Assembly (NCBI GenBank): GCA_905235605.1
Contig: CAJOMF010000004.1
Span: 1-48,381, forward strand
Length of the DNA stretch: 48,381 bases
Direction of reading: 5' to 3'
Source of the DNA: an uncultured bacterium
GTDB taxonomy: Bacteria; UBP6; UBA1177
The notes under the pieces were generated by a model. The model was given only the letters and a program-made list of their open reading frames with translations, was not told the origin of the DNA and did not search any database. The translations under genes and the position numbers were made by a program. Shown in pieces: positions 43,660 to 48,381 of this stretch (its first letter is position 1; each line of letters starts with the position of its first letter).

Positions 43660-44268
43660 ATGGAAAGAATCAAGGTCCACACCGAGAATCCCGAAAAAAG
43701 AGTGATCGATAAGGCTGTCAGCGTGTTGGAAAGCGGAGGAATCGCGCTTCTGCCCGGCGACACATCATACCTTCTCGCAGTCAAGATCGGCAAAAAAAAT
43801 GCGTTGGAGAAGCTCAACCGGATAAAACAGACGAAAAAACGGAAGTTCTACTCCCTCGTTTTCAAGGATCTGAGCGACATTTCGCGTTACGCCGACATCG
43901 ACAACCGTCATTTCAACCTGCTTAAACGCTGTCTGCCCGGCGCTTACACATTCATTCTTTCTGCCAGCCGCGAAATTCCCAAGATCATGCTCGAAAACAG
44001 AAAGGAAATCGGAATAAGGATCCCCGAAAGCCGCTTTCTGAACGATCTTGTCGAAGCAATGGGTGAACCGATCGTCGTTTCCACCGCATCCAATGAGGAC
44101 GGAGAAGAGTTCTGCGATCCCGAAGAAGACAGCCCCGACTGGCTCGGTTTCGTCGATCTTTTAGTCGACGGCGGCTATATTGCGATGGATCTCACGACCA
44201 TCGTACAGCTTTCGGGTGACGAATACGAGATCGTCCGCGAAGGGAAAGGCGATGTTGATATTTTTTAG
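43660..44268 (+). CDS. YciO/YrdC/Sua5-family protein
   Basis: The 202-aa protein carries the YrdC-like fold: GGIALLPGDTSYLLAV, RIKQTKKRKFYSLVF, CLPGAYTFIL, GIRIPES, PIVVSTASNEDG. Sua5/TsaC make threonylcarbamoyl-AMP for tRNA t6A. The SGGIALLPGDTSY variant and the short length are closer to YciO, whose activity is weak or different. AGAGG precedes the ATG. It is transcribed 30 bp after the GH13 gene. Confidence 0.85.
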   Translation: MERIKVHTENPEKRVIDKAVSVLESGGIALLPGDTSYLLAVKIGKKNALEKLNRIKQTKKRKFYSLVFKDLSDISRYADIDNRHFNLLKRCLPGAYTFILSASREIPKIMLENRKEIGIRIPESRFLNDLVEAMGEPIVVSTASNEDGEEFCDPEEDSPDWLGFVDLLVDGGYIAMDLTTIVQLSGDEYEIVREGKGDVDIF

Positions 44269-44297
44269 ACCAAATTCTTAAACGAACAAAAAAAATC

Positions 44298-44326
44298 TTG
44301 ATTTTCTCCAATAAATGCACTAAAAT
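44298..44326 (+). promoter_or_regulatory. Promoter of the second AbiE pair
   Basis: TTGATT, a 17-bp spacer and TAAAAT. The GTG start lies 20 bp further on, with GGAGG between. Confidence 0.6.
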
Positions 44327-44346
44327 TGCAGTTGGAGGTGAAAATA

Positions 44347-44934
44347 GTGATTATTTCAACTCAAATGCTTTTGGAAAAATATCGAGATTACGCCAATCCG
44401 CATAGCAAAATCAAGCGGTTGAACGACAAAGGCGAAATTTTTTATCTGACACGCGGACTCTACGAAACAGACAAAAACACCCCAGGATACTGCCTTGCCG
44501 GAGCGATATACGGCCCCTCTTATCTTTCATTCGACTACGCGCTTTCACGCTACGGCCTTATTCCCGAAGCGGTCTACGCCTTTACATCGGCCACTTTTGA
44601 AAAGAAGAAGGCGAAAAAATACGAAAATCACTTCGGCACTTTTCTATACCGCGACGTTCCTTCCGCCGCCTATCCTTTCTGGATCCTCATCAAGGAAGAA
44701 AACGGCTCTTTTTATCAGATCGCGGAACCGGAAAAGGCGCTCTGCGACAAACTCTACACCATGCCGCCCGTAACAAGTCAGAAAGATATTGAAAAAATGC
44801 TTTTTGAGGATCTGCGGATCGACGAAACTGAGTTCGCGAAACTAAATACCGGCAATATTTTGATGATCGGCGAAAAATATCGCTGCAACAACCTGAAATA
44901 TTTGATGAAATTCCTGCGGAGAAACACGAAATGA
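44347..44934 (+). CDS. AbiEi-like antitoxin of the second pair
   Basis: A protein of 195 residues that starts at a GTG after GGAGG (the upstream ORF start at 44326 lies in the promoter). It begins IISTQMLLEKYRDYANPHSK, a winged-helix-like region with RGLYETDK, continues with a GPSYLSFDYALSRYGL core and an AEPEKALCDKLY motif, both of the AbiEi/regulator class, and differs clearly in sequence from the AbiEi at 8042. The toxin gene overlaps its stop (ATGA). It probably represses the operon and neutralises the toxin. Confidence 0.85.
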   Translation: MIISTQMLLEKYRDYANPHSKIKRLNDKGEIFYLTRGLYETDKNTPGYCLAGAIYGPSYLSFDYALSRYGLIPEAVYAFTSATFEKKKAKKYENHFGTFLYRDVPSAAYPFWILIKEENGSFYQIAEPEKALCDKLYTMPPVTSQKDIEKMLFEDLRIDETEFAKLNTGNILMIGEKYRCNNLKYLMKFLRRNTK

Positions 44935-45794
44935 ACGGGATAGTCACCGAAATGCTGAAAAAATACAGCACAGAATCAGTTTTTGACAAAAAAAACGCCG
45001 TTAAGGAAATCATGCAGGAACTTGTTCTATGCGGTCTTTCGCGTGCAGGCTTCTTCAAACACGCCGCATTTTACGGCGGGACCGCGTTACGCATCTTCTA
45101 CGGCCTCGACCGTTTTTCGGAAGATCTGGATTTTTCCCTTACGGCACCCGATCCTGATTTCGAACTTTCGGAATATTTCCCCGATTTGAAAAAGGAACTC
45201 GCTTCATACGGGCTTAATGTCGAAATATCGGAAAAGCGGAAAACCAAAGAATCGCCTGTCCGCTCGGCATTTTTGAAAGGCAATACCAAAGAACATTTTC
45301 TTCTTTTCTACGCATCATACTCCGCAGCAGCCGGAATCGCCGGAGACGAAATGATAAAAATCAAATTCGAAGTCGACACCAATCCGCCGGACGGAGCGAA
45401 TTTCGAACACAAATACCGCCTTCTCCCCTCGCCTTACGAAATCACGCTTTACGACATGCCGTCACTTTTCGCGGGAAAAGTCCATGCCGTGATATGCCGC
45501 GCATGGAAAAGCCGCGTCAAAGGCCGTGATCTATACGACTACATATTTTATCTTTCACGCGGAACAAAACTTAACACCGGACATCTGAAAGCCCGGCTAG
45601 TGCAGTCGGAAGCATGGAAAAATGAAGACAACTTCACAGTTGAAGACGCCAAAAAGCTGCTATGCGAACGTTTTGACACTATCGACTACGAACAGGCGAA
45701 AAACGATGTCCGCCCGTTCATAAAAGACGCTGCCGCGCTCGGTATCTGGAACGCAGATTTTTTCAAGCGGATAACTATAGAGGCGGGTTTATGA
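44931..45794 (+). CDS. AbiEii-type nucleotidyltransferase toxin of the second pair
   Basis: The 287-aa nucleotidyltransferase has the AbiEii signature AFYGGTALRIFYG (46-58) and FSEDLDFSL (62-70), with a later MIKIKFEVDTNPP strand supplying another acidic residue and GRDLYDYIFYLSRG. The family transfers nucleotides to RNA and arrests growth. Its start overlaps the antitoxin stop. It is a different subfamily from the AbiEii at 7155, where the core reads LKGG...TTDIDL. Confidence 0.9.
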   Translation: MNGIVTEMLKKYSTESVFDKKNAVKEIMQELVLCGLSRAGFFKHAAFYGGTALRIFYGLDRFSEDLDFSLTAPDPDFELSEYFPDLKKELASYGLNVEISEKRKTKESPVRSAFLKGNTKEHFLLFYASYSAAAGIAGDEMIKIKFEVDTNPPDGANFEHKYRLLPSPYEITLYDMPSLFAGKVHAVICRAWKSRVKGRDLYDYIFYLSRGTKLNTGHLKARLVQSEAWKNEDNFTVEDAKKLLCERFDTIDYEQAKNDVRPFIKDAAALGIWNADFFKRITIEAGL

Positions 45795-45832
45795 CAAAAC
45801 ACACAATTCCTTCAATTTTGCACAAATTTTGT

Positions 45833-45863
45833 TATAATCGCCCGTTGTTGCCTTCCAAGGCAA
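45833..45863 (+). promoter_or_regulatory. Extended -10 promoter element followed by a leader hairpin
   Basis: TGTTATAAT (extended -10, 45830-45838) is followed at once by TTGCCTT-CC-AAGGCAA (45848-45863), a perfect 7-bp inverted repeat near the predicted transcript start, then a T-rich stretch. It could be a stabilising 5' hairpin or a weak attenuator in the leader of the gene at 45904. Confidence 0.4.
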
Positions 45864-45903
45864 TATTTTCATTGATATTTTTTAACAATTTCAGGTGCTT
45901 ATA

Positions 45904-47304
45904 ATGAGAAAACTCAATTTTTCAGTTCATTTTTTTCTTTATTCGATCTTAGCCTACATTTTTTACATCATCTATTTCGTACTTATCAAAAAGGTCGATT
46001 ACTTTTTCGGGCTTTACTACTTCACTCCCGCATATATATTTGTTTTCATTAAACTTTTTTCAACCGGAATCAAAAAGCTGCCTTGGGTCGCACTTTTTGC
46101 GCTCATTCCTTTCGCAGTTTCGGTCTTTCTCACTTTCGCAGACCATCCGTTTCAGGGATGGGAAGTTTCCGGCTTCATTCCGGTAGTGATCTTGTCTTCA
46201 TATCTTTTCAAAAGCTCCAAAGGCTCGCCTACCCCGCTCGGGATCAAGGTGATGCCGAAGATCATAAAGTACTTTTTAGCGATAGTTCTAATTTTCGGGC
46301 TCATCCACTTTTTCAAGACAAAATCGCTTTATGACGCACTTCTTCTCGTTGTAACCATCTGGTCTCCCGCTCCGATAGCGGCTGCGACCGCCCTTTTCAT
46401 AAATTTCATCGTTACGACGACAGCAATTTCAGTGCTTTTAAACAACATGAAGTTTTTCAACAACGAGACCAAAATTTCGAGACTTGTTTTTGATACCGAC
46501 AAGTATCTCAATATCCCGCACCTCAACCTTTCCGGGATCGAGACAGTCGCGGATATCAAAAAAGAAGATTTCATGCACATGATAGCCAAACTCAATCAGG
46601 CTGCCGAAAACGACCCCGAACAGACTAAGGACATCAGCAAAAACAAATGTTTTTCGCACACTTTCGCGGACGGGAAAACACTCACGATGGGACCGCTCCA
46701 TGTTCTGATCTCCGAAAAACACTGCTCGGTTGAAGGGCTTTCAGTTCCGAAAAAAGAGGCCGACAGCGAATACATCGCCCTTGCCGAAGGAACAAGAGTC
46801 ATCGGCTACTACGCGATCGACAAGGTAAGACCGGCCGAAAACGCGGCATTCCTCGAACTGTTTGACAAAAAATTCGGCATAAAGACAGTTATCGCAAACC
46901 CCGTGAAGCCGCAGCTCTGGCAGAACATCGGGACAACAGCTTCGCTTGATGAAATTGAACTCAACTGCAACGACATACTTATCACTGAGCATGAGCACGA
47001 AAATACTGCGGCAGTTCAGGCGCTCTGGGGCGGAGCCGACACAGCGAAAGGCGACATTTTTATCACGAAACCTTTCACGAAAACGCTCTTCAACTTCATC
47101 ATAGTTTCGAGGAATATTCCCGAAAAGATCGTGAAAGGAGCTATTTTCTGCTCAATCCCCTTCATGATCCAGCTTTTTGCAGTATCGTTCGGTGTCGTCA
47201 CGCCGCAGCTCTCGTCAGTCATAGTTCTGATGTCGTTTTTTATGACAGTCATCTACATTTTCTACATCAAACCGGTCTCGAAAAACACGCTCTCGGATAA
47301 GTAG
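45904..47304 (+). CDS. Catalytically degenerate P1B-type ATPase homologue
   Basis: The 466-aa protein has eight predicted membrane helices in the P1B-ATPase pattern: six N-terminal, a cytoplasmic region, then two C-terminal. SPAP at 154-157 occupies the place of the metal-binding CPC and FDTDKY at 196-201 the place of the phosphorylation motif DKTGT. The 43 residues from Ser154 to Asp197 match normal P1B spacing. A later IGYYAIDKVRP stands for the GxxxxxDxxRP segment, ANP (331-333) for TGD, and ADTAKGDIFI...IIVSRNIPEKIVKG for the conserved hinge region before the last helices. The actuator-domain TGE and the GDGxND motif are absent. It should be non-pumping; a regulatory or sensing role is inference. 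It is followed by a CPBP protease. Confidence 0.7.
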   Translation: MRKLNFSVHFFLYSILAYIFYIIYFVLIKKVDYFFGLYYFTPAYIFVFIKLFSTGIKKLPWVALFALIPFAVSVFLTFADHPFQGWEVSGFIPVVILSSYLFKSSKGSPTPLGIKVMPKIIKYFLAIVLIFGLIHFFKTKSLYDALLLVVTIWSPAPIAAATALFINFIVTTTAISVLLNNMKFFNNETKISRLVFDTDKYLNIPHLNLSGIETVADIKKEDFMHMIAKLNQAAENDPEQTKDISKNKCFSHTFADGKTLTMGPLHVLISEKHCSVEGLSVPKKEADSEYIALAEGTRVIGYYAIDKVRPAENAAFLELFDKKFGIKTVIANPVKPQLWQNIGTTASLDEIELNCNDILITEHEHENTAAVQALWGGADTAKGDIFITKPFTKTLFNFIIVSRNIPEKIVKGAIFCSIPFMIQLFAVSFGVVTPQLSSVIVLMSFFMTVIYIFYIKPVSKNTLSDK

Positions 47305-47306
47305 TA

Positions 47307-47948
47307 ATGGAAGAAAAAAGACGTTACAGATTCTTTATTGCATTCATCCTCATCACTATGATATCCATTCTTTCGTTTTTTATGAACAAATACCGCTTTC
47401 CGGCTCGTCACTTCATATTTCCGGCGGCGCTTTTTCTCCTTCCTCTGATAAGCGACAAGGCTTTCAGACCTAAAAAACTCTTTCTCCCATCGATCAAGGG
47501 CTTAAAACTCTTTCTCTGGGTCACAGTCGCTACACTCGTCTTCTATCCGCCGCTATTTTTCGCATACAACATCGGCTTTCTGCACCGCGCAATAGCATCT
47601 CTTACGACTCAAGAACTTATGCGGGCACTGACAAAAGGACTCATCGCGATAGCTGTCGCTGCGATCCCCGAAGAATTCTTTTTCCGCGGATATATTCAGG
47701 AGCATGTTTTTGCAGGTTTCGACAAAAAGATCCTGAAAATAATCTCACTCAAAAACCTCTTCACATCGCTTCTTTTCGGGCTTGTCCACGCACTGGCATT
47801 TCTCGACATAACGCGGGCGGCGACCTTTTTTCCGTCGCTTCTCTTCGGGCTTTTCACCGAAAAAAGCAGAGGAAGGATCTTTTATAGCATCTCTTACCAC
47901 GTCGTTTCGAACATATTAGCTTTCATTCTTTGGACATTTATAAAATAA
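47307..47948 (+). CDS. CPBP/CAAX-type intramembrane metalloprotease
   Basis: The 213-aa polytopic protein has the Abi/CAAX-protease motifs PEEFFFRGYIQ (Glu122, Glu123, Arg127), GLVHALAF (His161) and SISYHVVSN (His198), which form the glutamate/histidine active site of this membrane peptidase family. Members take part in bacteriocin immunity, peptide processing or stress responses. It starts 2 bp after the stop of the ATPase-like gene, so the two are an operon, which suggests a shared membrane function. Confidence 0.85.
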   Translation: MEEKRRYRFFIAFILITMISILSFFMNKYRFPARHFIFPAALFLLPLISDKAFRPKKLFLPSIKGLKLFLWVTVATLVFYPPLFFAYNIGFLHRAIASLTTQELMRALTKGLIAIAVAAIPEEFFFRGYIQEHVFAGFDKKILKIISLKNLFTSLLFGLVHALAFLDITRAATFFPSLLFGLFTEKSRGRIFYSISYHVVSNILAFILWTFIK

Positions 47949-47959
47949 TGGAGGAAATC

Positions 47960-48381
47960 ATGGAAAAACTGAAAAACGCGGCTTCATACATTGCCGGAAA
48001 GGTAAAAGAAAAAAATCTTGAAATGCCTGAACTGCTCATAACTTTAGGGAGCGGTCTCGGCGCTTTTGCGGAAAATGCGGAACAGAAACTCGTCATTCCT
48101 TACAGTGAGATCCCTGATTTTCCGTCATCGACCGTAGCCGGTCACAAAGGGAGGCTGATCCTCGCTTCCGACAAAGATTCCGGCAGAAACTTCTGGATCA
48201 TGCAGGGCCGCATCCACTATTACGAAGGCTATCCGATGGAAGCTGTCGTTTTTCCGCTGCGCACACTGATCCTTCTCGGAATCAAGAAATTCGTCGTCAC
48301 GAACGCTGCCGGCGGCATAAACAGGAACTTTGAGGCAGGCGATTTCATGATAATCCGCGACCACATAAACCTGATGGGAAC
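47960..48381 (+). CDS. punA: Purine nucleoside phosphorylase, N-terminal part
   Basis: The gene runs off the right edge; 140 codons are seen. TLGSGLGAF, AGHKGRL, MQGRIHYYEGYPM and VVTNAAGGIN match trimeric purine nucleoside phosphorylases, which split inosine and guanosine with phosphate for purine salvage. GGAGG precedes the ATG, 12 bp after the protease gene stop. Methylthioadenosine phosphorylase is related but less likely from the motifs. Confidence 0.9.
   Translation, partial: MEKLKNAASYIAGKVKEKNLEMPELLITLGSGLGAFAENAEQKLVIPYSEIPDFPSSTVAGHKGRLILASDKDSGRNFWIMQGRIHYYEGYPMEAVVFPLRTLILLGIKKFVVTNAAGGINRNFEAGDFMIIRDHINLMG

Follow-up and report, generated by a model that had tools for sequence, protein, structure and literature searches.

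A putative pseudoenzyme of P1B heavy-metal ATPase descent is retained across an order of rumen UBP6 bacteria

Among kinases and proteases, pseudoenzymes are a familiar phenomenon. Does the same fate await an ion pump, and what would a pump do once its motor is gone? The question is raised by a 466-aa protein, here called the pseudo-P1B-ATPase, encoded in the 48,381-nt stretch of DNA that we analyzed (the window), contig C4 in a draft genome of 2.67 Mb. The host order is a rumen UBP6 lineage, and the closest relatives of the genome are rumen and gut UBP6 bacteria. A preliminary description of the locus proposed that the protein has the build of a P1B ATPase, cannot pump by the usual mechanism, and forms a sensing or regulatory pair with the membrane protease encoded next to it. 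The coordinates given there are correct: the reading frame has its ATG at 45904 and its stop at 47304, and the protease gene begins 2 nt later. The features of the locus are collected in Table 1.

Table 1. Genes and protein landmarks at the pseudo-P1B-ATPase locus (window coordinates).
Feature	Position	Strand	Basis or remark
YciO-type member of the Sua5/YrdC/YciO family	43660..44268	+	PF01300, 130 bits; TIGR00057; synteny
AbiEi-like gene, 44326-44934; AbiEii nucleotidyltransferase gene, 44931-45794	44326..45794	+	AbiEii: PF08843, 109 bits; AbiEi: by position only, no family match
Pseudo-P1B-ATPase, 466 aa, 8 predicted TM helices (4+2+2), without A domain	45904..47304	+	ORF; start kept in homologues; hhalign to P1B ATPases; family-average TM peaks
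Short loop SKGSPTPLGIKVMP (about residues 105-118) in the position of the missing actuator domain	46216..46257 (approximate)	+	A-domain gap in global profile alignment; P111 L112 (PL) invariant in family
SPA (residues 154-156), aligned with the CPC metal site	46363..46371	+	43 residues ahead of D197
FDTDKYL (residues 196-202), aligned with FDKTGTL	46489..46509	+	D197 present in 17 of the 18 relatives
VIGYYAIDKVRP (residues 299-310), facing 'LGxxxxxDxxRP' of P1B ATPases	46801..46836	+	G301 Y302 Y303 invariant in family
IANP (residues 330-333), aligned with TGD	46891..46902	+	Aligned register
DILITEHE (residues 357-364), aligned with VGDGIND; without GDGxND	46972..46995	+	Aligned register
CPBP/Rce1-like glutamic intramembrane protease	47307..47948	+	PF02517, 48.4 vs 22.4 bits; EEFFFR, FGLVH and HVVSN motifs
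Purine-nucleoside-phosphorylase-type gene, start; runs off the window	47960..48379	+	PF01048, 55.5 bits

To judge descent we compared the family with a home-made reference set of 28 diverse P1B ATPases, and the case for homology rests on profile statistics with shuffles. The family profile scored 53.9 over 278 columns in profile-profile alignment, against 18.7 +- 3.1 (maximum 29.7) for 60 zone-preserving column shuffles, with reversed sequences at about 19, which bears out the similarity that the preliminary description expected from an HHpred-type search. The soluble domain alone scored 40.3 vs 16.1 +- 2.6 for its shuffles, and control families from the same locus reached 15-17. Further support for a shared origin is provided by two sub-families which, taken separately, scored 40.1 and 38.7 in identical register; overall, the register was consistent in 8 of 9 pairings. 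Descent from a P2-type ATPase was considered and rejected, the P2 profile (a set of 3 sequences) scoring 26 vs 35-54 for P1B. When a family-profile search was run on 386 genomes, the best match among the 361 outside the order was a genuine 687-aa P1B ATPase (E 6.6e-4, residues 111-253).

Searches with curated models point in the same direction, at low scores. With TIGR01494, the model for P-type ATPases in general, 11 of the 18 aligned members gave weak matches (best E 1e-4); TIGR01525 matched eight and TIGR01512 five, and no other family recurred among the model matches of these 18. The window's protein itself reached 15.2 bits (E 0.005) with TIGR01494, whose cut-off is 62.3, and 9.4 with TIGR01525 (cut-off 346). 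Because all model matches lie far under the curated cut-offs, the homology to P1B ATPases is remote. Pfam gave no match in the pseudo-P1B-ATPase, phmmer and hmmsearch returned nothing relevant from the PDB, and AlphaFold predicted the full protein (12 sequences) at a pLDDT of 35 and residues 184-398 at 38, both low, since the input was limited to close relatives. The small single-sequence score, the empty Pfam result and the missing structure would suit a unique membrane protein that resembles P-type ATPases by chance. We regard such a coincidence as very improbable, as it runs against the shuffle and reversal controls, the register recovered independently in two sub-families, the matching helix plan and the identity of the best match outside the order. 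At the level of sequence, descent from a P1B ATPase is well supported.

The frame of the pump is still recognizable. Family-average hydropathy, the one basis for this arrangement, gives TM peaks at residues 10-28, 34-52, 61-79, 83-101, 116-134, 148-179, 413-431 and 436-454. These eight predicted helices fall into the 4+2+2 plan of P1B ATPases, in agreement with the eight helices first described. The interval between TM4 and TM5 is only about 12 residues long, and a forced global profile alignment gaps the entire A domain, leaving four helices ahead of the gap and four behind. The actuator model PF00122 gave a best E of 1.2, in one member, among the pseudo-P1B-ATPases. With the entire A domain gone, TGE is gone too.

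The motifs of the motor and of the metal site have gone as well: none of DKTGT, TGE, TGD, GDGxND, HP and CPC occurs in any of the 18 aligned members. In the hhalign register, ISRLVFDTDKYL faces TTIVFDKTGTLT in P1B ATPases, TVIANPVK faces VLMISGDN, DILITEHEHE faces AMVGDGIND, and WGGADTAKGD faces IGTGTDVAMEASD. The place of the N-domain HP is taken by NDP in the window's protein and is not conserved across the family, and the place of the metal motif varies (SPA, TPA, SLT or SPV), with neither CPC nor CPx or SPC. The substitutions first noted at the DKTGT, CPC and TGD places, and the absence of TGE and GDGxND, are thus upheld in aligned register. The spacing between metal site and phosphorylation site needs a correction: S154-P155-A156 lies 43 residues from D197, as had been counted, but the P1B standard is 44 (27 of the 28 reference ATPases), so that the protein is one residue short. 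As far as sequence can show, phosphorylation-driven pumping by a Post-Albers cycle would be impossible for the pseudo-P1B-ATPase, and the earlier view that it cannot pump in the usual way is supported; all 18 aligned relatives share the motif loss.

Are these losses real, and is the gene still in use? The preliminary description had named a sequence error that restores the missing motifs as a result that would overturn it. Eighteen aligned relatives, each assembled separately, show the same losses, and sequencing error is therefore rejected. The pseudo-P1B-ATPase was found in 25 of 25 order genomes examined (the window's and 24 of 24 others), as a single copy, two of them partial at contig ends. 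These 25 were the only carriers among the 386 genomes searched; none of the 361 genomes outside the order had the gene, and three genomes of the sister family f4, from the same phylum, lacked it, no counterpart being found there beside the Sua5-family genes either (regions on three contigs). Within the genus, dN/dS is 0.06-0.11 for the pseudo-P1B-ATPase and 0.05-0.08 for the neighboring YciO-type gene. This argues against a decaying gene and indicates a functional one. The family has 32 invariant residues, which are not those of the ATPase motifs; examples are W86, E87, P111, L112, G301, Y302, Y303, N313, D357, D384, P390, P419 and P434. Such a pattern, with the motifs lost and other residues invariant, is that of a repurposed protein and not of a decaying one.

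Several of the invariant residues (W86, E87, P111, P419 and P434) lie in the membrane part, and the eight-helix frame has been kept while the motor motifs have gone. Both observations would fit a passive conduit, a channel or facilitator whose helix bundle moves a substrate downhill after loss of the motor. Against this stand the loss of the canonical metal-binding residues (CPC and the M5/M6 ligands), the lack of any invariant Cys, His or Met in the membrane part of the family, and the conservation of the cytoplasmic body, which a conduit leaves unexplained. We consider it unlikely, if the least unlikely of the alternatives weighed here.

The near-invariance of one aspartate leaves room for residual chemistry. 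This residue, D197 of FD[TS], is shared by 17 of the 18 relatives, and in family f1 it forms part of a D-x-D (FDTD) as in HAD phosphatases, so that the protein might be a HAD-type enzyme of changed chemistry, a phosphatase or phosphotransferase, that still uses D197. The second acid is confined to f1, however, and absent from f2 and f3; in one member D197 itself is replaced by Ala, HAD motifs II, III and IV are not conserved among the 18 members, and the HAD model PF00702 matched no member. On this evidence a surviving HAD activity is improbable.

Nor does the distribution of genuine pumps favor a role as regulator of a resident metal pump. No genuine P-type ATPase was found in the genomes of genera g2, g3, g4, g5, g7 and g8, all of which keep the pseudo-P1B-ATPase (these are drafts and the absence is tentative); with carriers that lack a detectable P-type ATPase, the regulation of a resident pump is not needed, and we rejected this candidate with the same reservation. 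Most order genomes outside the window's genus appear to have no P-type ATPase at all, which is unusual for bacteria and to which draft quality may contribute. Retention across the order under strong selection, with motor and metal site lost, implies that the protein probably has a new, non-pumping job.

Could that job be shared with the protease? The adjacent gene encodes a CPBP protein that matches PF02517 and carries the EExxxR, FxxxH and HxxxN motifs; with the myxosortase (Mrt) core model Mrt_core it scored 77.7 bits, under the cut-off of 100. The two genes are co-oriented with the 2-nt gap, and they adjoin throughout the window's genus, as a sensor or regulator paired with its protease would suggest. 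In every other genus, however, the protease gene lies elsewhere, on a different contig, and each of the 28 phylum genomes examined has one orthologue, including three without the pseudo-P1B-ATPase. On synteny we reject CPBP as a general partner. The cross-genome comparison that had been suggested gave a divided answer, with the variant protein conserved in all 25 order genomes and the protease adjacency confined to the genus. The proposed partnership is not supported as a property of the family, and we give a sensor pair with the protease little credence. Downstream of the pseudo-P1B-ATPase in other genera we find, by eye, a small HIT-like gene followed by an HtrA-like gene, or an adenylate kinase gene, or nothing recurrent. 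At three loci from genera g2-g4 (L117, L119 and L120) the small HIT-like gene lies directly 3' of the pseudo-P1B-ATPase; it encodes 112 aa in L117 and L119 and overlaps by 4 bp in L117, and the HtrA-like gene comes next in L119 and L120.

The upstream side is more constant. A co-oriented YciO-type gene is linked to the pseudo-P1B-ATPase in families f1, f2 and f3, with a gap of mostly about 15-25 bp. The gene is assigned to the YciO type because it exceeds the TIGR00057 cut-off (158 vs 123 bits), fails that of the TsaC equivalog (47 vs 175) and lacks, by alignment, the SxN of TsaC, which is kept by a second, unlinked copy in each genome. YciO has been termed an inactive paralogue of TsaC (PMC10321239). 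The linkage is interrupted in places. In genus g6 a TPR-like lipoprotein gene sits between the two genes, and defence-like or toxin-antitoxin genes separate them in the window and some congeners; the AbiE toxin-antitoxin in the window is an insertion, missing in several congeners that have a short gap. This junction (44269-45903 here) behaves as an insertion hotspot in the genus, with several congeners free of any insert. By eye, loci L008 and L012 carry an 87-aa HTH gene and a gene for a 684-aa nuclease-like protein, L161 a larger cluster, and L010 a nitroreductase-like gene.

Overall these results lead us to favor, by a modest preponderance, a pseudoenzyme derived from a P1B heavy-metal ATPase that works as a non-catalytic membrane protein, binding a ligand or partner and signaling or scaffolding, with YciO as the best candidate partner. 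A P1B ancestor would have had its actuator domain excised between TM4 and TM5; from its P domain the motifs for phosphorylation and Mg would have disappeared, from its N domain those for ATP, and from its membrane part the metal ligands. The 4+2+2 helix frame and a recognizable P/N-like cytoplasmic body would have been retained. On binding of a ligand or of a partner protein, this pseudo-P/N domain may signal to the membrane or tether the partner there. From synteny, the partner may be the product of the upstream YciO-type gene, and the CPBP protease would be a genus-level addition at most. We infer that a sensor or scaffold role, with whatever ligand or YciO contact it involves, is the most likely one, and the sensing or regulatory role first suggested was a reasonable guess. 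A more far-reaching proposal, in which order-specific pseudo-P-type ATPases, with the actuator excised and all catalytic and metal residues lost, act at the membrane as sensor or scaffold jointly with a YciO-type protein, in a pathway not yet described, is speculative, and we would put it well short of an even chance.

We found no description of a bacterial pseudo-P-type ATPase in the open-access literature, and the nearest precedents are eukaryotic: human TMEM94, which is contested, and the P4-like domain of Plasmodium GC-beta. TMEM94 is P-type-ATPase-like with degenerate motifs, and its structures lack TGES and give no sign of a phosphorylation cycle (PMC12134183); its role is contested (PMC13322241), and its status as a pump is disputed. 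As a precedent, compared here by description only, it differs in being eukaryotic, in having ten helices and in keeping an A-like domain. The P4-ATPase-like domain of GC-beta has lost most ATPase signature residues to degeneration in a protein that is conserved (PMC6592433), but it belongs to the P4 class and is fused to a guanylate cyclase, whereas the window's protein is stand-alone and P1B-like. YciO, the TsaC/Sua5 paralogue, is of the same type as the upstream gene, but YciO families elsewhere come without a pseudo-P1B-ATPase, as does the YciO-type gene of the sister family f4; the present family gives a lead on this widespread paralogue. The closest comparison is with the P1B heavy-metal ATPases of the CopA/ZntA type (TIGR01525, TIGR01512 and TIGR01494). 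The pseudo-P1B-ATPase resembles them in the order of its parts from TM1 to the C-terminus, in the 4+2+2 helices, in the spacing of 43 vs 44 and in its P/N body, and differs in lacking the A domain, DKTGT, TGD, GDGxND, HP, CPC and the N-terminal metal-binding domain and in scoring under the family cut-offs. Here the frame of an ion pump, without motor or metal site, has been selected across a whole order, including genomes without a detectable P-type ATPase, and the family offers a natural experiment on the uses of the P1B frame other than pumping.
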